Positions 45,861-59,650 of a stretch of DNA of 64,000 nt are shown here, piece after piece; the first letter of the stretch is position 1, and the number at the start of each line of letters is the position of its first letter. Location: the NCBI RefSeq assembly GCF_011082085.1, contig NZ_CP041063.1, positions 3,892,001-3,956,000 on the forward strand. The letters run 5' to 3'. The position numbers were made by a program, and so were the translations under genes. Source of the DNA: Bacillus sp. Cs-700 (GTDB lineage Bacteria > Bacillota > Bacilli > Bacillales > Guptibacillaceae). The notes under the pieces are model-generated. The model worked only from the letters and a program-made list of their open reading frames with translations, ran no database searches and was not told the DNA's origin.

Positions 45861-46493
45861 GTGTTTAAGAAATCGATTTTAGTAGTTTTTACGTTGGTTC
45901 TGTTGTTTAGTGGCTATCAATTTGGTCTCCCGTCCGCTCTCGCGATCCCTCCTGGAACACCTTCAAAGTCTGCTTCTCAATCTCAATTGGATTCCCTGAC
46001 TGTACAGTCTGAAGGCTCCATGTCCGGATACTCCCGCGATAAATTCCCACACTGGATCGGACAGGGGAATGGCTGTGACACGCGTCAGTTGGTACTACAG
46101 CGGGATGCTGATTATTACAGCGGTGACTGTCCTGTAACGTCTGGTAAATGGTATAGCTACTTTGATGGCGTGCAGGTGTATGATCCTTCTGATCTCGATA
46201 TCGATCACATGATTCCCTTAGCAGAGGCATGGCGGTCAGGAGCAAGTAGTTGGAGCACAGAAAAGCGAGAGGATTTCGCGAATGACCTTGATGGTCCGCA
46301 TCTTATTGCAGTAACGGCAAGCAGCAACCGCTCCAAGGGTGACCAGGACCCGTCTACCTGGAAGCCAACCCGTTACAGTGCTCACTGCGGTTATGCGAAG
46401 TGGTGGATCAATACGAAGTATGACTATGACCTAAGCCTTCAGTCTTCAGAGAAATCAGCTCTTCAAAGTATGCTGAATACGTGTAGTTATTAA
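45861..46493 (+). CDS. secreted HNH nuclease (GmrSD/DUF1524-type fold)
   Basis: GTG 45861 opens a 210-residue protein with a clear Sec signal peptide (SILVVFTLVLLFSGYQFG, cleavage near ALA). The mature domain has LDIDHMIPLAEAWRSG, LIAVTASSNRSKGDQDPSTW and a C-terminal cysteine pair. This matches the extracellular HNH family related to the DUF1524 nuclease fold (compare Streptomyces secreted nucleases). The His-Asn-Lys set fits a metal-dependent DNase. It could scavenge DNA or attack competitors. No immunity gene is required for an exported enzyme. Confidence 0.8.
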   Translation: MFKKSILVVFTLVLLFSGYQFGLPSALAIPPGTPSKSASQSQLDSLTVQSEGSMSGYSRDKFPHWIGQGNGCDTRQLVLQRDADYYSGDCPVTSGKWYSYFDGVQVYDPSDLDIDHMIPLAEAWRSGASSWSTEKREDFANDLDGPHLIAVTASSNRSKGDQDPSTWKPTRYSAHCGYAKWWINTKYDYDLSLQSSEKSALQSMLNTCSY

Positions 46494-46861: not shown

Positions 46862-48424
46862 TCAACCATGCATCCCCCCAACCAACCAACTCTTAGCCCG
46901 ATGAAAACCGATAGGCACTTGAATAATCGTCGTTTTCTGTGCATCCTCCAGTTCGTAAATCTCATCACATCCAATGATATCAAATCCAAGCAGGGGATGG
47001 CCGTTCATGCCAAGTGCGCTCGCTGTTAACAAGATTCCCTGAAGCAACATACCCGCTTCCATGTGTTGAATGCGATATCCTCTATAGCCAAGTTCATTTT
47101 TGTGATGTGTACGATCTCCGACGATATGGATACAGATCGGAACTTGATGTAGATTGACGTTATGAAGGGACATCCCAGCCTGGAGGCTAAAACGATAGTC
47201 ACCTTCTTTAATAAGGAGAAGGGAATGCGAAGCAGCGTCATACCGATAGGCCCCATTCGGAATGCCATCAATCTGATAAAAGCATCCATAAATGGAGACC
47301 CGTGACATTTGGTTTTCTTCTTTATTTAAATCGTTAGCGTATTGGTAGGATTCAGTGCTTTCCTTCAAAAGGGAAGCGAGCTGAACCTGATCGATTTTTT
47401 GTGCGTTAAAATCCATTTCTGGTGAATACCGATTCCGGAAAGTATGAGTAAAATCTTTGGTTATCTCTTTTGGTTCAGGTAATGCGATCTTTGTCTTGTT
47501 TTCGAATTTTTCTTCGCTTCCTTTTAGACTTCGGAACTGCTCGGTAGATTCAAGTATCGTGGCGTGATGAAGCTGTGAGATTTCAGGAAACGGTAAGACG
47601 TTTTGCGAACGTTCATAATGCGTCGTTGTGATGTTGGGTATTTCTTTCACTAATTCTGTTGCTGAGCATTCTCCAGGCGTTTCAACATGTGCGATCTTTT
47701 GCTCTGAAATTGGTATAACCGCATAGGTGCTTTCCTCCTGACCATTCAATCCAAGCAGGTGATTGATGGGATGATCTAGGAACTGAAAATGAACGGTTGG
47801 TGAATAGGAGAACCGTTTACTCACCTCCAACAGCTGTCCCATCAGCGCGCCAGCATCCAACCCTTGAAGGCGATAGGAAAAGTTGTGGTATTTAAAGAAG
47901 TTTTTCCAAAACATTGTGGTGATGATGACAGCCCCAAAACAAGTGGAAAGGGAGGAGCTGTTTCCTAGTGCACTGGTTAAGTAAGAATCAAAATTGCCCT
48001 TTCTGAGCATGAGAAGGCGATGGTGAGCAACATCGTAATTGTAGATTCCGTGTGGTAAGTCTTCTAGTTTCAGATAAACATAGAGTTCACTCGGATATAA
48101 GCCGCCACCCGAAGGCGGGAAGCGGCGGAATCCTTGCATCGTTTCAGCTGATTCTTCGTCAGAGGAAGACGGAAAAGCTGTTTGGTTAAACTGCGACAGC
48201 CCATACACATACCAGAGAAAATGACCGATTTTGTTTAGGTCAGGTGTTGGGCGAGGGGGCTGATCTTGTATTGTAAGTGGAATATCGTAAGGAAGTCGAT
48301 ACTCCGGCAAATGACGATAAACTTTATATGGGAGGGGAGCGTCGTCCCAATTCACTTCCCAATTCGGTGGCGTGACAAGGTCATTTTGAAAATGAAGCTG
48401 GTGTAAAAAAAGGTCGAGATTCAT
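46862..48424 (-). CDS. SagB-type TOMM dehydrogenase
   Basis: I start at ATG 48424 (MNLDLFLHQLHFQN), directly behind AAGGAGG, giving 520 residues. A longer frame begins inside the upstream gene and is rejected. Two nitroreductase-like halves are visible: RRFPPSGGGLYPSELYVYL near residue 95, and IQHMEAGMLLQGILLTASAL near the C-terminus. The FMN-dependent enzyme oxidises azolines formed by the cyclodehydratase to thiazoles or oxazoles. It is the last gene of the three-gene maturation operon, 19 bases after the YcaO gene. Confidence 0.85.
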   Translation of the reverse strand: MNLDLFLHQLHFQNDLVTPPNWEVNWDDAPLPYKVYRHLPEYRLPYDIPLTIQDQPPRPTPDLNKIGHFLWYVYGLSQFNQTAFPSSSDEESAETMQGFRRFPPSGGGLYPSELYVYLKLEDLPHGIYNYDVAHHRLLMLRKGNFDSYLTSALGNSSSLSTCFGAVIITTMFWKNFFKYHNFSYRLQGLDAGALMGQLLEVSKRFSYSPTVHFQFLDHPINHLLGLNGQEESTYAVIPISEQKIAHVETPGECSATELVKEIPNITTTHYERSQNVLPFPEISQLHHATILESTEQFRSLKGSEEKFENKTKIALPEPKEITKDFTHTFRNRYSPEMDFNAQKIDQVQLASLLKESTESYQYANDLNKEENQMSRVSIYGCFYQIDGIPNGAYRYDAASHSLLLIKEGDYRFSLQAGMSLHNVNLHQVPICIHIVGDRTHHKNELGYRGYRIQHMEAGMLLQGILLTASALGMNGHPLLGFDIIGCDEIYELEDAQKTTIIQVPIGFHRAKSWLVGGMHG

Positions 48425-48443
48425 TGCGTACCTCCTTGCCACG

Positions 48444-50357
48444 TTAAGGAAATGGATGCGGATAAGGATTGAGCTCCTCAACCGTTAAGTCTCGATCAAC
48501 AAACCCGAGTTCTTTTGGAACCTTTAATACTCTGCTTAATCCCGTGACGCGTCTAAGGTGATGGCCAAATGTCATCGGTAGCATGCCTGGAATGATTACT
48601 TTTGCGCAGTGGAGTCCGTTCCGTTTTATTTCTGGTGTTGTTTGGTCCACTACGATTACGTCTAAGTTTAATTGATGGAACGTTTGTAATAGGTTATTCA
48701 GATCCTCTGTAAGATCGTCATGATGCTTCGCTGGTTGAAACGCTTCTTGGAATGTTTGCATAGGTCGGTTTTGATTTAGTAAGAAGTGAAGACGTTCTTC
48801 TGCTTCAGGAAGTCCGTAAAGCATGCCGTGATCATCCATTTTCTTAACAAGCGAAGAGTCATGGTACATGGCTAGAAATTCGTCCTTCTTCTTCTTGAAT
48901 TCTTTATTTAACGGCGTGATCATACCCACACTTTCAAAGATCGCGCTTTTCACAGCGCGAACGGGATCAAGATGGGCACCTGCTGCACACATCAGATTTA
49001 AGCGATCAGTATCAGAGGTGCCGTTCTTCGTAATCGTTAAAATACACGGGATGTCGTGCTCCATGGTGGCATTGTATAAATAAAGGTCATAGCCCGTTAT
49101 CTCCTTCATCCGGTCGATCATCAAGTGGAGCTCTTCGTCGTTTGATGAGTAAGGATCAATTTGCGGAAGCTGGAGCTGGGCGTACCAGGTAATTAGAAAA
49201 GAGTCGCGTTCAAGCACTTCCATCATGCCGTAGAAAATGGCTTCTTCAAGACTTCCTCCGATCGCACAGCCGTTTGATGTTTCAAACACAAACCCATCCC
49301 CGCAGCCCATGCTGTAATACGCGAGACGCTCAGGTACGAGAATCGGTTCCTTTTTAAGAAGGGAATAGCCCCACACCCAATTCATTTTTCGATCAGGATG
49401 AAAAGGGGTGAACGGATAGCCCTCCTCCGCGTACTGTTCCTCTGAATGAACACCGAGCTGAAGCGGGTTCAAGGCGCGGTCCAGGTTACGATAGGAATCG
49501 TGAACAACGGTTCTTTTTCCTTTCGGATCAATTCCGCATGAGCGTTCTAATCCTTCCAATATCGCAGTCATTTGACTGATCGCATACGAGTTTGTTCTGC
49601 CTGCTGAGCCTTCATTTCCATTGAAGAGAGGGAGGTTTACGATTGCATCAGCATATGTTGTTTCAAAATCGATCATCATACGATTTAACAAGCCAGTACG
49701 AGGGTCAAGATAATCTCTGGAGAGTACGTTGCGTAAGTCGTTCATCGACCGGGTACGGTAGCCGCTAACTTTTAGACTTGGTTTTAACGTCATCACCGCG
49801 TCCGTGTCTGCTGGTAGAGAACTGCAAACGGAACAGTAGGCGTCTGGCAAGATTCGATGGCGAGAGCTTTCAAGTGAAGCCAAGTTAAGTAGTTCGATAG
49901 CCCCTTCCAATTGAGCTGAGCCTAGCACTTCATTTTTGATTAGCTGAGCCATTTGGAGAAGACCGGTTTGTGAGATCCATTGATCCTCAATCGCGTTATC
50001 CCTTTGGGTTAACACCTGCTGAATTTTCCATAGATCTTCGCGATCCGTTGCGGCCATCATCTTTCTTGTATCTGCACACTGTGAACAGCCTGCCATACTA
50101 GGGCGAACGAGTGGACCGATCACCCCTTCGCCAAAAGATAAGAAGGCCCGTAGCCAATTGATGCCAAGCTCTCGTGCTACTTCTTCCGCTTGTTTGTGCA
50201 TGGATGGATTCCAGCAGTCATGAATGACGAGTAATAGCGTTGTCTCCTCGGGTATCCCTGCAAGATCTGGAAGAAGCGTGAGGTGATGGGAAGCGAGTTG
50301 TTCCACTACGCAATTTCGCAGCAAGCCATTTCCGACTAAGGTAATGCTAGTGCTCAC
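48444..50357 (-). CDS. YcaO cyclodehydratase with fused leader-binding region (SagD-like)
   Basis: GTG 50357 follows GGGGGAGA and overlaps the upstream stop by 4 bases. Residues 1-200 resemble the ocin-ThiF/E1-like partner (ITLVGNGLLRNCVVEQLASH), with zinc-type pairs GCSQC and CSVC. Residues of about 220-637 are the YcaO domain (GCAIGGSLEEAIFYGMMEVL, AAGAHLDPVRAVKSAIFES), ending in the proline-rich tail NPYPHPFP that is needed for catalysis in this family. It converts Cys, Ser or Thr of the precursor into azolines using ATP. Confidence 0.85.
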   Translation of the reverse strand: MSTSITLVGNGLLRNCVVEQLASHHLTLLPDLAGIPEETTLLLVIHDCWNPSMHKQAEEVARELGINWLRAFLSFGEGVIGPLVRPSMAGCSQCADTRKMMAATDREDLWKIQQVLTQRDNAIEDQWISQTGLLQMAQLIKNEVLGSAQLEGAIELLNLASLESSRHRILPDAYCSVCSSLPADTDAVMTLKPSLKVSGYRTRSMNDLRNVLSRDYLDPRTGLLNRMMIDFETTYADAIVNLPLFNGNEGSAGRTNSYAISQMTAILEGLERSCGIDPKGKRTVVHDSYRNLDRALNPLQLGVHSEEQYAEEGYPFTPFHPDRKMNWVWGYSLLKKEPILVPERLAYYSMGCGDGFVFETSNGCAIGGSLEEAIFYGMMEVLERDSFLITWYAQLQLPQIDPYSSNDEELHLMIDRMKEITGYDLYLYNATMEHDIPCILTITKNGTSDTDRLNLMCAAGAHLDPVRAVKSAIFESVGMITPLNKEFKKKKDEFLAMYHDSSLVKKMDDHGMLYGLPEAEERLHFLLNQNRPMQTFQEAFQPAKHHDDLTEDLNNLLQTFHQLNLDVIVVDQTTPEIKRNGLHCAKVIIPGMLPMTFGHHLRRVTGLSRVLKVPKELGFVDRDLTVEELNPYPHPFP

Positions 50358-52246
50358 GTCGTCTCCCCCTCTCGTAACAGCACGCCATAGATGTCTATTG
50401 CTCCATCTTTTTCAAACGTTTCAAGATTTATTTTTACAATGGAAATTTCCTTGTTTTGTTGTTCGAAACGGTTTATGACAGAACGGAGAACGGTCGCCTG
50501 ATCGTTTGCATCATAAGCGGGGATATCAATGGATTGGATCGATTTATCTTCAACCGGAATCGTTGAAAAAGAGAGAGCTGCCGAAATGGAATGGTTTTGA
50601 GCTTCTTTCACGGCCTGAAGGAGCGCACTTCGTAAAGCGAGTACGAGAGTAAATCCGACGCTTCCGTACCAGCGGTTATCTTCTGCTTTTCTCCATACGA
50701 CAGGAAGGCCGTTCGTCTCTTTTCCTAAGGCGAGGTCCGGTACTTTGTTCATAGTTGTTAAAACTCTCAAATAGTAGCGACAGGTATTGTCTTCAACATG
50801 TTGAGGTGCAAATCTACAAATGCTTTCCATGCACTGATCGGCTTTTTGATTCCATTCCTCTTCTAACGCCGTTTGCAGTGCCCGAGTGACAGCCTCAACA
50901 AACGTTTCTCCAGCACCTATGTGGAGATCGGTTTCTGAGTACATAGCCTTTTCGAAAGAAGAGGGAAGTGATGAGATTATTTCTTCTTTTAATGGCAGAA
51001 CGTATTCCTCAATACCAGTCAACCCGGCATCCAACCTTGCTTCTTCGTGTGTTAAAGCTGCACTTATTAGGCTAGAGAATCCAGCTGATTTAATGTTAAC
51101 CGTCTGAATCTCACATTGAGCTAAAGGTAATTGACTCAGCTCGCCTTCTTCCCACTTGTGAAAAATGCCTAACTCGCTGGTTAGCTGACTGAAATAGTAA
51201 AGGAGTTTGTTCGGATCTTTTTTCTTCTCTTCACTAAATTCGTTGGAGACCTTTTCGACTTCAATCTTTCCTGAGACGAGTGGATGAGGGCGATAGGGAT
51301 GCCATTTGCCTTCAAGGGTTTCAAGATTAAGTAGAAACGCCTGATTGGTCGAAAGTACAGGGATGCCTGTGCTTTTTTTAAACCATTCAAATACGACCAT
51401 ATTTGCGAGCATCGCCCCAGCAGGTGCTGAAAAGGAGCCGGTGTTTTGCGGTTCATGTAAACTTCCCCACGCAGATTCCCAACAGCCGCTATCCGGAGTA
51501 ACAAGAGGGCCGGCCATCCCAACTCCTTTTGTGCAGATGGCGGGGAGAAACGGCTTTTTCCTTTCTTTACAGGCATGAAGGAGACTGCGTAGCTCCTGCA
51601 CATTTTCTTCGGAAGACACATATAAAATTCCGTCGAATGGTTCGATCTGCCTTTCCCAAGCGATCGGCCCTCTTTTTACTAAAACTTCAATCGAGACTTC
51701 AGGATCTGATTTTCTTGCAGCTGTTTCTAATTGTTTGATTCGTTGTGGGTTCGTCTTTTCATCTGTTAGTAGCGTCTGGAAACGAGGCAAACCAGATGTA
51801 AGTAATGATGATACCAGCCCAATTAACATCGATCCTTCTCCAACAACGAGAACGTTCTTCTGACGGTATTGCTGAAACCGATACGCACCGGAATCAGAAA
51901 AGCTTTCGATGTATTCAATCTGTGAAGCGTATTTCTCCACAACATGTGATGGTAATTCGTGGGGAAGATCTTGACTTACGTCACGCAGAAACCCATTCGT
52001 ATAGAGGGTATTTGTAATCTCGTAAACTCGATCACGATAAGGCTTTGTAAGCCCCTCTGTGAGGGTTTCTAGTGAATATTCGCCATTATACATCGGAATC
52101 AGTTTTTCGATCCATTGATGGATCGTGCTCCCTTCCATTCGAAAGGAACCTGCATTGTTTCTAAAATAGACGCTTCCACTCGGCTCCGGCATGAAGAAAG
52201 TACCTTTCTTTAGCTTTAATCGCATGGAAGGCTGAACATTCGTCAT
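50354..52246 (-). CDS. ThiF-like thiazole-containing bacteriocin maturation protein
   Basis: I start at ATG 52246 (MTNVQPSMRLKLKKGTFF) behind AGGAGGTG, giving 630 residues. An upstream frame start at 52279 is rejected. A winged-helix-like N-terminus (residues 1-95) precedes a degenerate ThiF/E1 fold (VLVVGEGSMLIGLVSSLLTS). The C-terminus has a YcaO-like or docking segment. It matches the Bacillus family named putative thiazole-containing bacteriocin maturation protein and probably presents the leader peptide to the YcaO enzyme. It is first in the operon. Confidence 0.8.
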   Translation of the reverse strand: MTNVQPSMRLKLKKGTFFMPEPSGSVYFRNNAGSFRMEGSTIHQWIEKLIPMYNGEYSLETLTEGLTKPYRDRVYEITNTLYTNGFLRDVSQDLPHELPSHVVEKYASQIEYIESFSDSGAYRFQQYRQKNVLVVGEGSMLIGLVSSLLTSGLPRFQTLLTDEKTNPQRIKQLETAARKSDPEVSIEVLVKRGPIAWERQIEPFDGILYVSSEENVQELRSLLHACKERKKPFLPAICTKGVGMAGPLVTPDSGCWESAWGSLHEPQNTGSFSAPAGAMLANMVVFEWFKKSTGIPVLSTNQAFLLNLETLEGKWHPYRPHPLVSGKIEVEKVSNEFSEEKKKDPNKLLYYFSQLTSELGIFHKWEEGELSQLPLAQCEIQTVNIKSAGFSSLISAALTHEEARLDAGLTGIEEYVLPLKEEIISSLPSSFEKAMYSETDLHIGAGETFVEAVTRALQTALEEEWNQKADQCMESICRFAPQHVEDNTCRYYLRVLTTMNKVPDLALGKETNGLPVVWRKAEDNRWYGSVGFTLVLALRSALLQAVKEAQNHSISAALSFSTIPVEDKSIQSIDIPAYDANDQATVLRSVINRFEQQNKEISIVKINLETFEKDGAIDIYGVLLREGETT

Positions 52247-52404
52247 AAGACACCTCCTGACCCATAGTTCTGACTTCATACTATGAGTCTATGTTTGCAG
52301 ATTTGTCTCTTATGTGTGGACATGATGGTTAAGGGGTTTTTTGGTTGAATTCTGAAGATGCTGCCACAAGGTTGTTAAGGGAGGGCGCGCTTGATTAGGA
52401 AGTT

Positions 52405-52500
52405 TCGCGGAATTAATTAAGATTCCGCGGAAATAATTCGCGTTTTAGCGGAATAAAACTAATTTTCGCGGAATTATCCAGAAAATCGCGGAATTATTAT
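52405..52500. repeat. five tandem ~20-bp GCGGAATTA repeats
   Basis: GCGGAA occurs at 52407, 52427, 52448, 52468 and 52488, giving intervals of 20, 21, 20 and 20 bases. Each copy is followed by an A/T-rich tail (TTATT, ATAAT and the like). About two helical turns separate the units, so all lie on one face of the DNA. The array sits 160-250 bases upstream of the bacteriocin maturation operon. It could be a cooperative protein-binding array or a genomic micro-repeat. The rest of 52247-52697 holds only the terminator at 52564. Confidence 0.7.
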
Positions 52501-52563
52501 GATTTCCTCCACTAAATAGGAGGGATATGCATGGGAATACTTGAGCGAAACCAATCATCTTGT

Positions 52564-52602
52564 GAAAGAGCGCTTATCTTTTATAGATAAACGCTCTTTT
52601 TT
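52564..52602 (+). terminator. terminator, both strands possible
   Basis: AAAGAGCG.TTATCT pairs with AGATAA.CGCTCTTT around TTTAT, followed by TTTTTT. No gene directly upstream uses it on the plus strand. Confidence 0.75.
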
Positions 52603-52697
52603 ACCCCCAACATATACAAAACACACCTAAACTATCCATTTTGAAATAGGATCGGTACACTTTAATCTATATTAAAAGTAAGGGAGATTTTCATACT

Positions 52698-52865
52698 GTG
52701 CCTCGTATCCAATCAACTGAATTCTTTTGTAAAAGCTGTTATCGGAATTTCATCCTAGGCCAGCACGTTGCTTATCTCAGCGAAAAGCATTATACCGTTT
52801 GTGAATCTTGTTCTAGTCATGAAAATCACATTGAATGGCGAATAGTTGAAGATTTTTTTGATTAA
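52698..52865 (+). CDS. small zinc-ribbon protein (55 aa)
   Basis: GTG 52698 follows AGGGAG at a somewhat long spacing. The product has two CxxC pairs (FFCKSCYRN and TVCESCSSH) 31 residues apart, forming a zinc ribbon, and an acidic tail (WRIVEDFFD). It overlaps the convergent MarR gene by 4 bases at the stops. It is too short for ordinary gene finders to rank highly. The function is unknown. Confidence 0.5.
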   Translation: MPRIQSTEFFCKSCYRNFILGQHVAYLSEKHYTVCESCSSHENHIEWRIVEDFFD

Positions 52866-53335
52866 TCCGCTATCGATTTTTTTGACGTTTGTTCTACCCA
52901 TTTCACAAATGAATCACCATAGAAGTGCTTGTTCATATCAGATACGATGGACATGAATAGAGCACGTTTTTGAGGATCCATTTCCTTCATATAGTTCCAG
53001 AATTGATATTCGTAGGTGGAAGATGTGTGTAGAATCTTCTCGCCGTCTGGGCTGAGTGATACATAGGTAACACGTCGATCCTGGTTCTTTTTCGTTTGGA
53101 TGACTAGACCTTTTTTTGTCATACGTGTTAATACCTGAGCCACCGTTGAAATATCGAGCAGGCTCAATTCAGCTAGTTTTGAGAGAGTAATGGATTTTTC
53201 TAGATACACTATCCACAATATGTGCTGTTCTGCCTGAGTGATCCCCAAATCCTTTGCGGCCATCTGCCATTCCTTATCTAACACTTTGAATGCCGCACGC
53301 ATGTGATTCATGATGTAATGCAATTGATTTTCCAT
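52862..53335 (-). CDS. MarR-family regulator (HPr/ScoC-like)
   Basis: This 157-residue winged-helix protein reads ITQAEQHILWIVYLEKSITL, LAELSLLDISTVAQVLTRMT and the wing KNQDRRVTYVSLSPDGEKIL. The C-terminal FVKWVEQTSKKSIAD and the length recall the Hpr/ScoC subgroup that represses protease and sporulation genes. AAAGGAT precedes ATG 53335. A palindrome 75 bases upstream (53410-53426) may be its operator. Confidence 0.8.
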   Translation of the reverse strand: MENQLHYIMNHMRAAFKVLDKEWQMAAKDLGITQAEQHILWIVYLEKSITLSKLAELSLLDISTVAQVLTRMTKKGLVIQTKKNQDRRVTYVSLSPDGEKILHTSSTYEYQFWNYMKEMDPQKRALFMSIVSDMNKHFYGDSFVKWVEQTSKKSIAD

Positions 53336-53409
53336 ACATCGATCCTTTCTAACAGAGGTTTAGTCCTATTTTACTATAAAATGCACTAAGCGGGAAAGGA
53401 TCCGATAGT

Positions 53410-53426
53410 CTAGAAATGCGTTCTAG
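53410..53426. promoter_or_regulatory. CTAGAA-N5-TTCTAG palindrome
   Basis: A perfect 6-bp inverted repeat with a 5-base spacer lies upstream of the MarR gene. It is a candidate autoregulatory site, although no -10/-35 pair next to it is convincing. Confidence 0.35.
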
Positions 53427-53583
53427 CTTAAAAAGTAACCCATTGATTGGATGATTTTACTATGAATAAGGGGAACTTTAGGAGGGATAGACGAAAAAGA
53501 CGGCTCTTCTTATTTTGGTGCAATCTTCCGAGATAACGGCCAAAAATGTTGAGGAGAACACGGACGACTTAAGTAAAAGAAGA

Positions 53584-53606
53584 AAAGGCGCTATTATAGC
53601 GCCTTT
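53584..53606 (-). terminator. terminator of the VOC gene
   Basis: AAAGGCGCTA (53584-53593) and TAGCGCCTTT (53597-53606) form a perfect stem. On the minus strand it is followed by TTCTTCTTTT, 15 bases after the stop. Confidence 0.75.
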
Positions 53607-53620
53607 AGCACGGATAAATG

Positions 53621-54016
53621 CTATTTTGCATTCTCGTCTGGTTGATGAACACCAAAGATATTCCCTTCCGTATCCTTATAGTAACCCTGCCATGCCATCC
53701 CCGGTAGTGCGTATTTAGGCAATGCGACCACACCGCCCTTATCAAGGATTTTAGCTTCAATTGTATCGTAATTTTCTACCGCTATCGTACAGGCATAGCC
53801 ATTGACAGGCTGATTTGGTTCTGGAGGTGGACCTTGACGCTGCATGAGGGCACCGTTAATGCCAAGCTGATCGTCACCGCCAGTGACAACGCCAAAATAA
53901 GGCATGCCAGCGAAATCGCTCCAGTCTTCGTAAGTCCATCCAAATATTTCACCATAGAAACTTTTTGCGCGGTCCATGTTATCGACGTGAATTTCGAAAT
54001 GCACAATTCTGCCCAT
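53621..54016 (-). CDS. VOC-family (glyoxalase/bleomycin-resistance fold) protein
   Basis: This 131-residue protein has GRIVHFEIHVDNMDRAKSFY at the start and DTEGNIFGVHQPDEN at the end, with the paired beta-alpha-beta modules of the VOC fold. It is close to the CapA/YdhR-like group that lacks a proven substrate. AGGAGGG precedes ATG 54016. It is divergent from the YciI gene, 170 bases away. Confidence 0.8.
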   Translation of the reverse strand: MGRIVHFEIHVDNMDRAKSFYGEIFGWTYEDWSDFAGMPYFGVVTGGDDQLGINGALMQRQGPPPEPNQPVNGYACTIAVENYDTIEAKILDKGGVVALPKYALPGMAWQGYYKDTEGNIFGVHQPDENAK

Positions 54017-54186
54017 AATTCCCTCCTAAATAGTCGTTGTGTCTTCATTTTGTATGTTCGATAAGGCGCATAAGCAGTCCTTCTAAAATGAACGCAGATT
54101 TTTTGATGGAAGGAGGATTCTTTTCTTTTATCGAATAGGTAGAAGCGAGAATCTAAGCCGGTAATTGTCAAAGAGGAGGAGATTTG

Positions 54187-54534
54187 ATGCTGTTTATGCT
54201 GATCGTGAAGGCATCGAAGAATTCGGAAGCTGGAAATCTACCAAGTGCTGAGCTGAGGGAAGCAATGTCAACGTACAATGAAGAGTTAGTAAAAGCGGGC
54301 GTTCGGGTGATGGCAAAGGGTCTTCATCCAAGTTCGAATGGACTGCGTATTTCGTATCCAAACGGCGCTCCTGTCGTTGAAGAAGGTCCGTTTACCGAAA
54401 CGAAAGACATCACTGCCGGTTTTATTCTCATTGATGTGGAGTCAAAAGAAGAAGCGGTTAAGTGGGCGATGCGCATGCCTGACCCGCAAGGATATGGCGA
54501 GGGCCAGGTTGAACTGCGTCAAGTCTTTGAGTAG
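54187..54534 (+). CDS. YciI/DGPF-domain protein
   Basis: ATG 54187 (MLFMLIVKASKNSEAG) is best placed behind GAGGAGGAG. A TTG three bases earlier is not needed. The 115-residue protein has GAPVVEEGPFTETKDITAGF and the DGPF-type ending. In other bacteria such proteins are encoded near sigma factors or act as chlorohydrolases or dioxygenase-like enzymes. No ECF sigma gene is adjacent. Confidence 0.8.
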   Translation: MLFMLIVKASKNSEAGNLPSAELREAMSTYNEELVKAGVRVMAKGLHPSSNGLRISYPNGAPVVEEGPFTETKDITAGFILIDVESKEEAVKWAMRMPDPQGYGEGQVELRQVFE

Positions 54535-54572
54535 GTTTCATTGATGTGCAGAAGGAGGGAGCAGGGAGCACC

Positions 54573-55400
54573 ATGATTCATGAACTTGAACAAGATGAAT
54601 TCTACAAATGCAAAACGTTATTAAATGATATTGGACATCTAGAAGCAAAAGCCGTTATCGAAGGGAATAACCCTGGTCGTGTTTTTGTCGATCATCTCGA
54701 TGCCCCTAAAGCAGGGCTGATCTGGTTAGGAAATCATGACGGTTTTTTCTTTATTGGAGATGATCAAAGTGAAGTGTTTCTTCAAGAGATCAATGATTGT
54801 ATGGAAACGACAATAATTCCTGAAGCAAGGCAGCTGAACTTAACGACTTTTATTGCTATTGGAAACCATTCAAGGTGGGATAAAACAATCGAGACGCTCT
54901 TCACCGATCGTGACATGCATAAATTCAAACAACATGTGTATCGACTCGAACACCCTAAAGAGCAGCATCATCCGCCCATTAAATCCGAGTACCACGTCAT
55001 CAAAATCAGCGAAGCTCTCTTTAACGAACAGAACTATTCGATTACCAATAAACACTTCTTACAGTCTAAGTTAGCTGAATTCTGGGCTTCACCTAATGCC
55101 TTTTTTGATAAGGGAATCGGGTATGGCGTTGTCTATCAACATCAACTTGTGAGTTTGTGTTTTTCAGGATTTGTAGCTGGAAATGTTCATGGGTTAGATA
55201 TGGAAACCATGGAGGATCATCAAGGGAATAAATTAGGTCAGCTGGCAGCGTCCAGTGTGGTGAAGGAATGTGTTCATAAGGGGATGGTTCCATATTGGGA
55301 CTGTGAAGAGGCAAATCAGGCTTCGAATGCCATTGCGAGAAAGGTAGGGTTAGAGAATTTCTTTTCTTACAATGTGTATCTTTTTCCGATTGATTCCTAA
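54573..55400 (+). CDS. GNAT acetyltransferase, zwittermicin-resistance type
   Basis: I prefer ATG 54573 (MIHELEQDEFYKCKTLLNDI) behind AGGGAG. An in-frame GTG at 54546 would add nine residues. The 275-residue protein has an N-terminal extension (NPGRVFVDHLDAPKAGLIWL) and a C-terminal GNAT core (KLGQLAASSVVKECVHKGMV, then WDCEEANQASNAIARKVGLE). This matches the GNAT family that includes ZmaR-type aminopolyol resistance enzymes. The true substrate is unknown. Confidence 0.75.
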   Translation: MIHELEQDEFYKCKTLLNDIGHLEAKAVIEGNNPGRVFVDHLDAPKAGLIWLGNHDGFFFIGDDQSEVFLQEINDCMETTIIPEARQLNLTTFIAIGNHSRWDKTIETLFTDRDMHKFKQHVYRLEHPKEQHHPPIKSEYHVIKISEALFNEQNYSITNKHFLQSKLAEFWASPNAFFDKGIGYGVVYQHQLVSLCFSGFVAGNVHGLDMETMEDHQGNKLGQLAASSVVKECVHKGMVPYWDCEEANQASNAIARKVGLENFFSYNVYLFPIDS

Positions 55401-55424
55401 ATGAAAGTAAAAAGAGGTGAGTGT

Positions 55425-55889
55425 ATGGTTTCTTTACATAAAGTTCAAAAAGAAGAAGCGACGATCTTGCATAATCTCATGCAATTTTATTTTTATGAGT
55501 TTAGTAAATACTTACCAAACATGAAGGTGGGAGTTAATGGCGCCTACAAGCAAATTGAGTTAGATCATTATTGGCGCGATCAACACCAGGCATATTTTAT
55601 TAAGTTAGGTGATGAATTGATTGGTTTTGCTCTTGTAGAAATGGCCACTCTTTCAAGTCCAAACTCCATTCAGGAGTTCTTTATTATGGCTAACTATCAG
55701 GGGAATGGCTATGGAAAAGAAAGTGCGAGAAAACTGATTGCGATGTTTCCTGGGGAATGGGAGATTACTCAGATCGAAAAGAATAAGCCTGCACGTGCGT
55801 TTTGGAGAGGGTTAATTAAGGATGTAAGTGCTGATCATTTTGAGGAATATCATGAAAATGGCTTATACGTACAGAAATTTAGTATGTAG
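55425..55889 (+). CDS. GNAT acetyltransferase
   Basis: I start at ATG 55425 (MVSLHKVQKEEATIL) behind AGAGGTGAG rather than the ATG that abuts the previous stop. The 154-residue protein has the acetyl-CoA-binding segment EFFIMANYQGNGYGKESARK and KNKPARAFWRGL. It is co-oriented with the previous GNAT gene, and they may be co-transcribed. Confidence 0.8.
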   Translation: MVSLHKVQKEEATILHNLMQFYFYEFSKYLPNMKVGVNGAYKQIELDHYWRDQHQAYFIKLGDELIGFALVEMATLSSPNSIQEFFIMANYQGNGYGKESARKLIAMFPGEWEITQIEKNKPARAFWRGLIKDVSADHFEEYHENGLYVQKFSM

Positions 55890-56072
55890 ATGGATAGAAC
55901 GAGAGAGTCATCAGGTGTTTGGACTTTCAGGTGATGAATGTCATAGTTTTCGCTTCATTCAGGTGGCGACCAAGTATTATTCGCTCTGAGGTTTTTAGAG
56001 AGGATGGGGAGATTAGGAAAATGCAGAAGAAATCAAATAGTTGAGGAAGCTACTTCCTGGGGGGAGATTTAT

Positions 56073-56942
56073 TTGAGTTCAATCAGAACAATGACTAGGT
56101 CTGACATCACTAAAGTTTCCAAGCTAATCGCAGAGTTAAACAATAAGGAAGATTCGTACATTGGCTACTGTGGAACTGAAGTTGAAGAGATTGCTAACTC
56201 TTTTGTGGAAGATATAACGGATGTTCCTTATACTAAGAGTTTTGTCGTAGCTTATGAGAAAGATGAGTTGGTTGGTGTTTTAGGATTTGATGCTTCCCTA
56301 GAAAGTCAATCTGCAGAAATATGGGGGCCATTTGCGAAAGAACCTGGATGGGCCAACCAATTATGGACTGAAATGGAGAAATTACTACCTTCTGAGATAC
56401 ATCAACTCAATATGTTCACAAGTAATCACAATCGAAATCTATTAAGTTTCGCTAAGGAATTGGGATTTGCTAAACAAAGTGAGCAAACGATATTAACCGT
56501 TTCTCGTGAGGATAGGATGCAAATAAAAGCCGAACCGGTTGTGGAACTTACGGAAGAGTACTTCTCAGAGATAATACAATTACATAATGAAGCTTTTCCA
56601 GAAACCTATTATAACGGACAACAATTGATCGAGCGCCTTAGTACGAATCGAAAAGTGTTTATTATTAAAAAATCCAATCAGCTAAAAGGATACATCTATG
56701 CGGAGGCTGAACCAGCGTTTGGAGAGGCTAGCATTGAGTATATGGCCGTTAAAGACTTGGACCGAGGTAAGGGGTTTGGGAAGCAGCTAATCAATGGTGC
56801 CATTCAATGGCTATTTTCTTATGAGGATATTGCTTCCATTACGCTTTGTGTTAACGCAGCTAATGAAACAGCCATAAAATTGTATAAGAAGGTTGGTTTT
56901 GAGCACGAACATGATTTAGTATTTTTGCAGAAGAATAGGTGA
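56073..56942 (+). CDS. two-domain GNAT acetyltransferase
   Basis: TTG 56073 (MSSIRTMTRSDITKVSKLIA) has a GGGGGGAG ribosome binding site 6 bases upstream. The ATG at 56004 would add 23 basic residues without a ribosome binding site. The 289-residue protein has two GNAT-like halves: a degenerate N-terminal one, and a C-terminal one with MAVKDLDRGKGFGKQLINGA and LCVNAANETAIKLYKKVGFE. Enzymes of this double form acetylate antibiotics or peptides. The substrate is unknown. Confidence 0.8.
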   Translation: MSSIRTMTRSDITKVSKLIAELNNKEDSYIGYCGTEVEEIANSFVEDITDVPYTKSFVVAYEKDELVGVLGFDASLESQSAEIWGPFAKEPGWANQLWTEMEKLLPSEIHQLNMFTSNHNRNLLSFAKELGFAKQSEQTILTVSREDRMQIKAEPVVELTEEYFSEIIQLHNEAFPETYYNGQQLIERLSTNRKVFIIKKSNQLKGYIYAEAEPAFGEASIEYMAVKDLDRGKGFGKQLINGAIQWLFSYEDIASITLCVNAANETAIKLYKKVGFEHEHDLVFLQKNR

Positions 56943-57010
56943 TTGTTACTAGGGAACTTCTTATTATGAAGTTCTTTTTTTATATAGTGGAAATAAAATC
57001 CAGATAATTA

Positions 57011-57039
57011 TTGTATATATTGTATATAATGTATACAAT
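57011..57039 (+). promoter_or_regulatory. GntR operon promoter with embedded operator
   Basis: -35 TTGTAT (57011-57016) and -10 TACAAT (57034-57039) are spaced by 17 bases. Between and overlapping them is TTGTATATAATGTATACAA (57020-57038), a 7-bp inverted repeat with a 5-base centre. It fits a YtrA-type GntR operator. Repressor binding would block RNA polymerase directly. Confidence 0.7.
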
Positions 57040-57069
57040 AATGTTTAGATAATTGAAAGAGGTTTTTTA

Positions 57070-57447
57070 ATGAAAATTATAATTTCCAACAGTTCAAAGA
57101 CACCGATTTATCAACAGATTCACCTTCAATTAAAAGAACAAATCCTAGCAGGTGATCTGAAGTCAGGCCAGCCACTTCCATCGATGCGTCAATTGGCGAA
57201 GGATCTAAATGTTAGTCTCATAACATCTAAACGCGCTTATGAGGAACTTGAAAAAAATGGGTTCATTTATTCTATCGTTGGAAAAGGGTCATTTGTATCG
57301 GAACAAAATGAGGAAATGATGAAAGAAAGAAAAATGCAGGGGATCGAAGAGCAATTGGCGACTGCCATCAAAAATAGTAAAGACATCGGCGTCACACTAA
57401 CCGAATTAAAAGAGTTGCTGACCATTTTATATAGGGGGGAAGAATGA
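57070..57447 (+). CDS. GntR-family regulator, YtrA subfamily
   Basis: This 125-residue protein is a winged-helix domain (TPIYQQIHLQLKEQILAGDL, then MRQLAKDLNVSLITSKRAYE) plus a short two-helix tail. That is the YtrA arrangement, without a ligand-binding domain. Such repressors control the ABC exporter genes downstream and often respond to cell-wall antibiotics. The stop overlaps the ATPase start by 4 bases. Confidence 0.85.
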   Translation: MKIIISNSSKTPIYQQIHLQLKEQILAGDLKSGQPLPSMRQLAKDLNVSLITSKRAYEELEKNGFIYSIVGKGSFVSEQNEEMMKERKMQGIEEQLATAIKNSKDIGVTLTELKELLTILYRGEE

Positions 57448-58322
57448 TGCAAGATGAAAATGTTGTAGAACTCCAGCATGTCTGTAAGTCCTTTGAAGGT
57501 TTTAGCCTAAGGGATTTTTCGTTAAAGGTTAAAAAGGGATATGTGACAGGATTTATCGGTGGAAATGGTGTAGGGAAGTCTACCACAATTAAACTGATGA
57601 TGAATTTGTTACAACCTGATAGTGGATCGGTTTCTGTATTTGGATTAAATTACAAAAATCATGAAAAAGAAATTAAGCAGCGAATTGGCTTTGTATTTGA
57701 TGAAAATGTGTTCTATGAACATCTCACACTAGCTGAGATTAAAGCGATTGTGAGAAATGCATATGTGAATTGGGATGAACAGATATTCAACGAATATGTA
57801 AGTTTGTTTAACTTACCGCTAACTAAAAAAATGCAAACATTTTCAAAAGGAATGATGATTAAAGCGTCTTTAAGTATCGCATTGTCTCACCATGCGGAAT
57901 TAATTATTATGGATGAACCCACTTCAGGATTAGATCCTATTTTTCGAAGAGAACTATTAGATCTATTGCATGAACTTCTGCAAGATGGGGATAAAACAAT
58001 CTTTTTTTCCACTCATATTACATCTGATCTGGCCTCGATTGCTGATTATATAACCTTTATTCATGATGGAAAGCATATTTTCACGAAAGATTTTCATGAA
58101 ATTGAGCAGGAATATGCGATTGTAAAAGGGGGACTGGAATTACTAGATTGGGAAACAGAACAGGAATTTATAGCTGTACGAAAAATGCCTTATGGATTTG
58201 AAGCTTTAACCTCAGATAAACAACGCGCAAGGAAAATATTTGGAGAGATGGCGCTTTATGAAGCTCCATCTCTCGAAGATATCATGTATTTCACAAAGAA
58301 AGGAGAAAGATCTCTTGTTTAA
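57444..58322 (+). CDS. ABC transporter ATP-binding protein
   Basis: This 292-residue ATPase has Walker A GGNGVGKSTTIKLM, a diverged signature FSKGMMIKASLSIALS, Walker B LIIMDEPTSGLDP and the H-loop STHITSDL. It is of the exporter (YtrB/BcrA-like) type. It pairs with the membrane protein that starts 8 bases inside its 3' end. The GntR-ATPase-permease order is that of Bacillus ytr-like stress operons. Confidence 0.85.
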   Translation: MMQDENVVELQHVCKSFEGFSLRDFSLKVKKGYVTGFIGGNGVGKSTTIKLMMNLLQPDSGSVSVFGLNYKNHEKEIKQRIGFVFDENVFYEHLTLAEIKAIVRNAYVNWDEQIFNEYVSLFNLPLTKKMQTFSKGMMIKASLSIALSHHAELIIMDEPTSGLDPIFRRELLDLLHELLQDGDKTIFFSTHITSDLASIADYITFIHDGKHIFTKDFHEIEQEYAIVKGGLELLDWETEQEFIAVRKMPYGFEALTSDKQRARKIFGEMALYEAPSLEDIMYFTKKGERSLV

Positions 58323-58923
58323 CTTAATACGTAAAGATATCATCTTACTAAAAAAGACGATACTCGTATTATTGGCAATTTTATGTGTGTATTTAATCTT
58401 AGATTTTTCTATGATTTGGGTAGGAATCCTTTGTAGCATAGTGATATCAATGCAATCCTTTACCGTAGATGAAAAATCCACTATCCAACTATTGCTCAAT
58501 TCTCTCCCCTATACAAGGAAAGAGATCGTGAGTTCAAAGTATATTGTTGCCGTTCTCTTAACACTATTGATCGGTACAGTTACTTTTATTGGAAATATAA
58601 TCATCCATGGAGAAATGATTTCTTGGAAAGAACTATTGTTCATGGTTGCTGTTGTGATGTCGATTCTGTCATTCATTTTTCCTTTTTGTTATAAATTTAA
58701 AAGCAATTATCTTATGATAGCGGCAATTGGTTTATTTGCATTGTATCTACTGACAGTTACATTTTTTATCCATGATTTAAATGATCGAATGAGAGCGTTT
58801 GTTAAGTTGCTTATAACTTCCGACAATACTGTAGAATATCTTGTTATAGGGGTGTCCGTTTTCCTTTTATACATAGGTTCAGGATTTGTATCCCTCCGTA
58901 TTTATACAAAGAAATTGTTTTAA
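58315..58923 (+). CDS. ABC-2 type transporter permease
   Basis: I place the start at TTG 58315 (MFNLIRKDIILLKK) behind AAGGAG. A longer frame from 58240 lies inside the ATPase gene. The 202-residue protein has six hydrophobic segments (for example ILVLLAILCVYLILDFSMIW) and belongs to the ABC-2 permease group with soluble loops. It forms the export channel with the preceding ATPase. The substrate might be a membrane-active antibiotic. Confidence 0.75.
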   Translation: MFNLIRKDIILLKKTILVLLAILCVYLILDFSMIWVGILCSIVISMQSFTVDEKSTIQLLLNSLPYTRKEIVSSKYIVAVLLTLLIGTVTFIGNIIIHGEMISWKELLFMVAVVMSILSFIFPFCYKFKSNYLMIAAIGLFALYLLTVTFFIHDLNDRMRAFVKLLITSDNTVEYLVIGVSVFLLYIGSGFVSLRIYTKKLF

Positions 58924-58982
58924 TTACCCTTATAAAAAATTCCCATTAAGATATGAGTTCGCTTTAAATGGATTCATTATTT

Positions 58983-59022
58983 AAAGAACCTGGAAGTGCT
59001 TAGCGCTTCCAGGTTCTTTTTT
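58983..59022. terminator. strong terminator, possibly bidirectional
   Basis: AAGAACCTGGAAG (58984-58996) pairs with CTTCCAGGTTCTT (59006-59018) and continues into TTTTTT. It ends the ABC operon and may also stop the minus-strand bacteriocin precursor transcript. Confidence 0.85.
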
Positions 59023-59112
59023 CGTTGATTTATGTGATTTAGCATTAAGTGTACTTGGAATAGTTAGTCGATTTCACGATTTTGTCGTTCAGAGTTTAGG
59101 ACCTAATCTGGT

Positions 59113-59427
59113 TCAGCGACCACCGCATCTGCCGCATCCGCCACATCTTGCGGCACATCCACCACAACCTGCACATCGCGCACAACGAGCACATCCACCA
59201 CAGCCAGCACAACCGCCGCAACCTGCACAACCTCCACAGCCAGCACAGCCTACGCAGCCCGCACAGCGGAAACACCCAAAGCATACAAATCCAATTAAAC
59301 GAGTATCATTTGGATCTACATTCTGGTCTCCATTTGGATAATAATTCGCTTGCTCACAAGGAACTAACTCCTGAGCATGGTACTCTCCAACATCTAAGTG
59401 TTGAAGATCGTTTTGAAATTGATTCAT
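59113..59427 (-). CDS. heterocycloanthracin-type TOMM precursor peptide
   Basis: ATG 59427 (MNQFQNDLQHLDVGEYHAQE) lies behind GGAGGTGA. The 104-residue peptide has a leader of about 45 residues with the family motif DPNDTRLIGF, then a core from Cys49 to Cys101. In the core 18 cysteines occur in Cys-Xaa-Xaa units (CAGCGG repeats), with one four-residue step at Cys91-Cys95. Haft described this Cys-Xaa-Xaa precursor family in Bacillus as matured by SagB/YcaO/ThiF-type enzymes that may be unlinked. The matching maturation operon is 6.9 kb away on the same strand. The opposite-strand His-rich frame (59148-59519) is its shadow. Confidence 0.9.
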   Translation of the reverse strand: MNQFQNDLQHLDVGEYHAQELVPCEQANYYPNGDQNVDPNDTRLIGFVCFGCFRCAGCVGCAGCGGCAGCGGCAGCGGCARCARCAGCGGCAARCGGCGRCGGR

Positions 59428-59650
59428 TTCTGTCACCTCCATCAAACGTTCATCATGGACTGAAATCCATTTTCCTAAGCGTTTATCTTATGAAACACTT
59501 TCTTCAACACACTATGTAGATGGGCTGGGTGATGTTCCTGATGAAAGCGCGGAAAGTATGTGGACAAATTAGTAGAAACAGGGGTGATTCCGTTGAAGAG
59601 AAGCGAAGGGCTCTGTGTTGCGTTAGGTGAGGATAAAGTTTAAGGGCGTT

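Follow-up and report, generated by a model that had tools for sequence, protein, structure and literature searches.

The window examined here, a 64,000-nucleotide stretch of the Bacillus sp. Cs-700 genome (contig NZ_CP041063.1, positions 3,892,001 to 3,956,000, forward strand; the source genome is a Pseudalkalibacillus), carries a three-gene enzyme operon of the thiazole/oxazole-modified microcin (TOMM) type with no precursor gene beside it. Which peptide do these enzymes act on, and when in the life of the cell would the product be made? The candidate substrate is a small cysteine-rich peptide encoded upstream. The arrangement is best explained as a heterocycloanthracin (HCA)-type TOMM system whose product would be made in the sporulating mother cell, the enzymes appearing first and the peptide later; we put the probability of this reading at roughly 0.68. 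The genes concerned, in window coordinates, are the following.

50354..52246, minus strand: F, an ocin-ThiF-like protein of 630 amino acids (aa) with a leader-binding RRE (recognition element of ribosomally synthesized and post-translationally modified peptides, RiPPs); TIGR03693, match to PbtF
48444..50357, minus strand: D, a fused E1-like and YcaO cyclodehydratase of 637 aa, C-terminus ...PYPHPFP; TIGR03604, TIGR03882, PF02624
46862..48424, minus strand: B, a SagB-type flavin mononucleotide (FMN) dehydrogenase of 520 aa with two nitroreductase-like halves; TIGR03605, PF00881, PDB 3eo7
59113..59427, minus strand: precursor peptide gene, 104 aa, with leader motif F4xxxL8 and a core containing 18 Cys; orthologues, alignment, dN/dS

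F scored 579.4 bits with TIGR03693 (cut-off 561.9), and its N-terminal part (residues 28-100 of a longer open reading frame (ORF) of 641 aa, which begins at 52279) matched the thiopeptide protein PbtF (PDB 8t19, E 8.4e-8). The start adopted for F is an ATG with a good ribosome-binding site. D scored 403 bits with TIGR03604 (cut-off 219.25), 115.1 with TIGR03882 (cut-off 36.9) and 291 with PF02624; its YcaO part spans residues 252-592, and LynD, MusD and TruD were among its matches. B reached 210.7 bits with TIGR03605 (cut-off 78.4) and matched PF00881 in its second half as well as PDB 3eo7; a TTG-start ORF reaching 48481 is a mechanical call only. The GTG start of D overlaps the stop of F by 4 nt and the gap between D and B is 19 nt, forming a compact minus-strand operon (46862-52246). 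The same order, F, D and B side by side, was found in all 44 loci that were read. In the whole genome, a single contig of 4.3 Mb, YcaO, the F family and TIGR03601 each gave a single match. The first-pass annotation had described SagB, YcaO and ThiF-type genes forming an operon and had placed it, with its distant precursor, in the heterocycloanthracin/sonorensin group; both statements are borne out by the F protein, the fused E1-like/YcaO cyclodehydratase, the SagB-type dehydrogenase of the same operon and the Cys-Xaa-Xaa (CXX) precursor.

The annotation had also pointed to a 104-residue peptide with 18 Cys-Xaa-Xaa units 6.9 kb upstream, and this was accurate. The precursor has 19 cysteines, C24 in the leader and 18 in the core, spaced by three residues with one spacing of four, and its gene lies 6.87 kb upstream of F on the same strand. 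The peptide has a calculated monoisotopic mass of 10511.26 Da when unmodified; 18 thiazolines would lower it to 10187.07 and 18 thiazoles to 10150.78. With TIGR03601 it scored 29.7-30.9 bits, below the cut-off of 35. Three orthologues from the genus, 91-92% identical to it, exceed that cut-off (39.2, 48.4 and 42.3 bits, the last with in-frame neighbours), and the shortfall is a missed scoring threshold and not a missing part. Orthologues are present in all ten F-positive genomes of the genus, the window included, and the other nine are 91-99% identical to the window's peptide. In an alignment of 12 precursors the leader is followed by a CXX core in which the number of units varies and the letters hardly change; F4xxxL8 occurs in all 12 leaders and fits the published FXXXB leader rule (PMC10634744, in excerpt). 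Most substitutions are synonymous: relative to the window, core dN is 0.008-0.041, and core dS ranges from 0.27 to inestimably high. The dN of F, D and B in the same comparisons is 0.025-0.195. The core values are lower bounds on change, because repeat alignments favour low dN. Outside the genus, core dN rises to 0.126 in one other genus and to 0.212 in a mixed set (g8/g50), with four of six loci of each read and one g8 locus carrying a wrong start. The idea that the core evolves more slowly than the leader was dropped; it is true for the four most distant genus pairs and unclear for the five near ones. The precursor is a real gene, given a near-identical peptide in nine other F-positive genomes and mostly synonymous substitutions. 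The glycine/alanine/arginine-rich core had been suggested to be a possible new compound. It is indeed a variant at the level of the genus, but it is shared across the genus, and Paenibacillus sacheonensis has a similar Arg/Gly/Ala core. In another genus (g55, loci L128 and L132) the core consists of long CAGRCGGF repeats and so departs from the usual CXX type.

Linkage of the peptide to the enzymes was followed within the genus and in an order-wide set of 397 genomes. F is present in 10 of 14 genus genomes and the precursor in the same 10; neither was found in the other four. In the larger set the F-family search matched 116 genomes, 110 of them with long matches (the six partial ones were left out), and the precursor profile search also matched 110. 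Both were found in 106 genomes (Fisher p about 6e-86), and the four precursor-only genomes represent partial matches. The precursor was located 117-421 bp upstream of F in 96 of the shared genomes and 3.9-10.0 kb upstream in nine, always on the same strand. In the remaining one (G314) it had seemed to be on another contig, and reading of the locus revealed an adjacent precursor-like ORF; the same was true on inspection of the four genomes with F only. Thus a precursor-like ORF lies upstream of F and on its strand in all 110 F-positive genomes, adjacent in 101 and separated in nine. This bears on the possibility that the cysteine-rich peptide stays unmodified, serves in metal binding or in the coat, and is no substrate of F-D-B. 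Cys-rich repetitive proteins are known in spore coats, but so constant a partnership with F, together with a leader bearing a motif of the RRE-binding type, makes such a role improbable.

Eight of the nine separated loci, the window included, belong to Pseudalkalibacillus; in all of these the precursor, 5-10 kb distant, keeps the same strand and the same side of the operon. To call it "unlinked", as had been done, is therefore too strong, even though the precursor does stand apart from the operon. In a tree of F and D built from 18 of the 44 loci, the eight separated genus loci group together on one side of a branch supported at 95/95, and 29 of 500 label shuffles did equally well. The two genus members with an adjacent precursor fall outside it, as do the closest outgroups, G064 and G019, whose precursors are adjacent too. 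A single separation event within the genus would be the simplest reading. The ninth case (G175, locus L116), with 3.9 kb between precursor and F, is from a genus distant from the window's, so separation probably arose more than once.

Two sequence elements carry the argument about timing. In the genus alignment conserved blocks were found just before F and just before the precursor, whether or not the two are separated, and similar blocks recur across genera. In the window they are:

52286..52314, minus strand: element before the F-D-B operon, CATA-AGAGACAAA-N8-CATAGACT, with a sigma-E-like core ATA-N17-CATAGACT and a presumed SpoIIID-like box between
59508..59535, minus strand: sigma-K-like promoter element before the precursor, AC-N17-CATAGTGTG, followed by TTGAAG; pattern counts in 44 loci, dpaA, controls and hold-out

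The typical element before F reads CATA-nn-RGACAAA-n8-CATAnnAT, and that before the precursor AGTAACAATACCCA-n8/10-CATAnTTTGTTG. Patterns were counted in the 44 loci, in 308 regions upstream of other ORFs of the same loci (controls) and in a hold-out of 66 F-positive genomes that had no part in defining the patterns. CATA-N2/3-RGACRA-N6/9-CATA occurred before F in 43/44 loci and in none of the controls; it was found in 49/66 hold-out genomes and never in 100 mononucleotide shuffles. One genus (g23) accounts for ten of the hold-out failures (0/10): the GACAAA part is lost and the two CATA blocks are mostly kept. Before the precursor, AC-N16/17-CATA...T was present in 38/44 loci and 10/308 controls, and in 52/66 hold-out regions (shuffles: mean 3.7, maximum 8). 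Counted by genera with at least one positive member in the 44-locus set, the F pattern covers 32 of 33 and the precursor pattern 29 of 33. Neobacillus vireti has both elements; P. sacheonensis matches neither pattern, although its F is preceded by CGGACAAA and TACATA. The conservation of both elements is firm.

As positive controls, promoters of known dependence were taken from the same genomes: 20 spoIIID regions (spoIIID is activated by sigma-E; PMC517825, in excerpt) and 30 regions of dpaA/spoVFA, which is under sigma-K (PMC5629000, in excerpt). The consensus sequences of B. subtilis are TYATATTT / KCATANANTN for sigma-E and KCACM / GCATANNNTA for sigma-K (excerpt of PMC3416734). In C. difficile, ATA-N16-CATATATA precedes spoIIID as a sigma-E promoter and AC / CATATAAT precedes sigK as a sigma-K promoter (excerpt of PMC3789822).

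The precursor element resembled the sigma-K control. Its AC/CATA core was present in 28/30 dpaA regions, but in only 3/44 F and 2/20 spoIIID regions. The extended form CATA...TGTTG was found before 29/44 precursors and in 13/30 dpaA regions, as compared with 1/44 F regions, 1/20 spoIIID regions and 0/308 controls. A matrix trained on dpaA alone, with windows chosen by the AC/CATA core, scored 27/44 precursor regions above the 99th percentile of the controls and no F (0/44) or spoIIID (0/20) region; the window's element reached 10.7 against a threshold of 9.4. In the hold-out, 35/66 precursor regions exceeded the 99th percentile of random 420-nt windows. The -35 letters differ (AACA before the precursor, TCAC before dpaA). 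Because the full consensus KCACM / GCATANNNTA is not matched, the precursor is described as working like a sigma-K gene and not filed as a proven one; sigma-K control is likely.

For the operon, sigma-E control is plausible. The core ATA-N16/18-[CA]ATA.A.T was found in 28/44 F and 12/20 spoIIID regions, in 6/308 controls, 2/44 precursor and 0/30 dpaA regions, and the window's F region matches it in the form ATA-N16/18-CATAnAnT; the spoIIID matrix and the published consensus lend sigma-E no support there. Between its two CATA blocks lies a GGACAAA box which may be SpoIIID-like. GGACAA was present in 24/44 F regions and 13/308 controls, the full SpoIIID motif in 9/44 and 24/308. SpoIIID itself is encoded in 379 of the 397 genomes and in all 110 F-positive ones, and F in none of the 18 genomes without it; this co-occurrence is weak support, because the 18 are eight genera, two of them incomplete. 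Directly after the window's F element (52274-52285) there is a second CATAGTATGAAG, which might permit late transcription of the operon too.

Several points weigh against these assignments. The loci counted are related and not independent. The short cores are unspecific: the 64 kb of the window contain a single F pattern (52314) and a single CATA...TGTTG (59516), as compared with 11 occurrences of the loose sigma-E core and 13 of the loose AC/CATA core on both strands. Some pattern positions were set after inspection. In the sigma-K core any letter was allowed at the final position once precursors and dpaA had been viewed, and with the published final A (CATANNNTA) there is little enrichment (precursor 4/44, dpaA 3/30, controls 4/308). 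The [CA] of the sigma-E core was admitted after viewing spoIIID; with C alone spoIIID falls to 2/20 and F stays at 28/44. In the hold-out the literal sigma-E core was found in 17/66 regions, and in 53/66 when a purine was allowed at position 6 (shuffle means 1.1 and 1.7). The matrix trained on spoIIID failed to transfer (F 1/44, hold-out 0/66). Scored with equal weights, the published sigma-E consensus (at least 12/15) was reached by 7/44 F regions, 48/308 controls and 9/20 spoIIID regions, and that of sigma-K (at least 10/12) by 5/44 precursor regions, 25/30 dpaA regions and 14/308 controls.

Such results give some room to an alternative in which the product is an ordinary HCA/sonorensin bacteriocin, secreted in stationary phase through an unlinked general ABC (ATP-binding cassette) exporter after cleavage by a housekeeping protease, while the elements bind another regulator. 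Neither element is clearly above controls when scored against the full published consensus, and the sigma-E assignment is insecure. Sonorensin has been reported to be antibacterial and membrane-active (PMC4544038, in excerpt), which would suit a secreted bacteriocin as well. Against this stand the likeness of the precursor element to an established sigma-K promoter, that of dpaA, within these genomes and the fact that sigma-A-like promoters, tried as candidates before F and the precursor, were at shuffle level (9/44 and 15/44; shuffle means 8.6 and 15.2). A search for accessory genes took 554 ORFs of at least 90 aa from the 44 loci, reaching at most 8.5 kb upstream of F and 6.5 kb downstream of B, and clustered them by BLASTP. 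The clusters represented in at least five lineages were the precursor family (13 lineages), its shadow frame and the ABC-ATPase superfamily (9 lineages, 17 members), the last in scattered positions and on both strands. BLASTP revealed no recurring family of dedicated exporters, immunity proteins or proteases in the 44 loci; having joined the precursor itself in just 13 lineages, the method could miss small, repetitive or diverged families. The ABC-ATPase cluster speaks somewhat for secretion and leaves room for an exporter, though one without a conserved place. On balance the secreted bacteriocin is unlikely, if a serious competitor.

An exporter closer at hand had been proposed, by position only, in the ABC genes at 57444-58923. 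They form part of the interval between operon and precursor:

52862..58923, no strand assigned: intervening MarR, glyoxalase, YciI, GNAT and PmtR/ABC-like genes, outside the system and variable between genomes

The segment 57070-58923 encodes a GntR regulator, an ABC ATPase and an ABC-2 permease, and is present in 4 of the 10 HCA loci of the genus. In favour of a dedicated exporter or immunity system are its place between operon and precursor and the resemblance of the regulator to PmtR and of the ATPase to PmtA; these were the best NCBIfam models, both below cut-off. Five of the 14 genus genomes have the permease, G010 just as a 42% homologue on another contig; it was not found anywhere in the genome in five of the ten that have F and the precursor (G004, G005, G006, G007 and G009). 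The interval itself is variable: in G004 it shares none of 20 tested window genes, and no orthologues of the window's MarR and APH-like kinase genes were found in G004, G006 or G010, where the search with the MarR gene gave just MarR homologues of about 45-53% identity. The ABC pair was accordingly rejected as the exporter, a role that is now very hard to credit. In G011 (L032:15094-15970) the orthologous ABC ATPase matches as two abutting pieces, perhaps owing to a frameshift.

The precursor looks like a transcription unit of its own, as judged from the features around it, which include a terminator-like site upstream, after the neighbouring glyoxalase gene, and the following two:

59433..59440, minus strand: ribosome-binding site of the precursor, GGAGGTGA, read from the sequence and invariant in 10 aligned genus genomes
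58983..59019, no strand assigned: stem-loop in the gap where the precursor and ABC genes converge, resembling a terminator on the plus strand

Taken together, the data suggest the following course of events. Early in sporulation the enzymes would be expressed in the mother cell; their promoter, distinct from that of the peptide, would most likely depend on sigma-E, with SpoIIID as a modulator. The precursor would follow late in the same compartment from its separate, most likely sigma-K-dependent promoter. Judging by the protein families, F would bind the precursor leader through its RRE and present the precursor to D, which would cyclise core cysteines to thiazolines using ATP, and B would oxidise the thiazolines to thiazoles. 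HCA cyclodehydration has been reconstituted elsewhere. The product would accumulate in the mother cell and leave by lysis or end on the spore. If it is made inside a lysing mother cell, the system can do without a dedicated exporter or immunity gene, and with independent promoters for operon and precursor the latter is free to drift from the former. Judging by the upstream elements, the product would belong to sporulation, with or without an antibacterial activity. Up-regulation of an HCA-family gene as well as of sporulation genes has been reported for B. cereus biofilms (PMC6962202, in excerpt), which fits a sporulation product and is no proof of it.

We lean, by a modest degree, towards extending this to the whole order: HCAs would then be a developmental product of the mother cell, with enzymes under sigma-E and peptide under sigma-K, placed on the spore surface or released by lysis, and not bacteriocins secreted in stationary phase. 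If true, such an order-wide role would explain the missing linked exporters and the wandering precursors, and activity screens in growing cultures would miss both the right moment and the right location. Through the upstream elements, the purpose of HCAs and the question of the unlinked precursor become accessible to simple tests on sporulating laboratory strains.

Some further observations concern the surroundings. Downstream of B (45861-46493) is a gene which, by eye, encodes a small secreted nuclease-like protein; six of the 14 genomes of the genus carry it, and in G009 it is split into two pieces. Imperfect repeats containing TTCCGCG are clustered in the stretch from the MarR gene to F (52406-52487), which has five of the six such sites of the 64-kb window. 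Searches of Rfam and PADLOC gave no match, and the plasmid search gave seven distant records.

The family, its chemistry and the distant precursor were known before (PMC2674419; PMC4603692 and PMC10634744 in excerpt). HCAs are a large TOMM group of 254 clusters (Cox 2015, PMC4603692, in excerpt), and precursors displaced from the operon were described by Haft 2009 (PMC2674419). As far as searches of the open-access literature go, the linkage across the order, the pair of conserved upstream elements and the proposed tie to sporulation are new: titles and the beginnings of abstracts held nothing that ties HCAs to mother-cell sigma factors, and no papers on Pseudalkalibacillus bacteriocins were found there. 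The YcaO gene mentioned in an excerpt of PMC9912610 is a different one and not demonstrably of HCA type.

Among known systems, the HCAs of the Bacillus cereus group (PMC2674419; PMC4603692, in excerpt) share with the window the F-D-B set, with a fused truncated cyclodehydratase and an F protein, and the Cys-Xaa-Xaa precursor, with indels by CXX unit, away from the operon. They differ in a CGG-rich core ending WNWWII or [FY]EY, as compared with CAG/CGG/CAR units ending GRCGGR here, and in Arg-Arg before the core, where the window's peptide has a single Arg; in B. anthracis the precursor is 1.27 Mb from the operon, here 7 kb. The B. licheniformis precursor (Haft 2009, PMC2674419) is also of the Cys-Xaa-Xaa type, but it is made of Cys-Trp-Ser units and lies beside the enzyme genes. 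Sonorensin, a "predicted" HCA-subfamily member in the excerpt of PMC4544038, is likened by description, as a Cys-Xaa-Xaa type precursor with reported antibacterial activity. Thiopeptide clusters (PbtF, TclI) likewise use an F protein with an RRE to present a Cys-rich core to a YcaO enzyme; no dehydratase or cycloaddition gene of thiopeptide type was present among the window genes scanned. Dipicolinate synthase (SpoVFA/DpaA) exemplifies the mother-cell products under sigma-K. It is not a RiPP, and the likeness lies in the promoter: the precursor element, with its predicted sigma dependence, is similar to the one before dpaA within these genomes, with different -35 letters.

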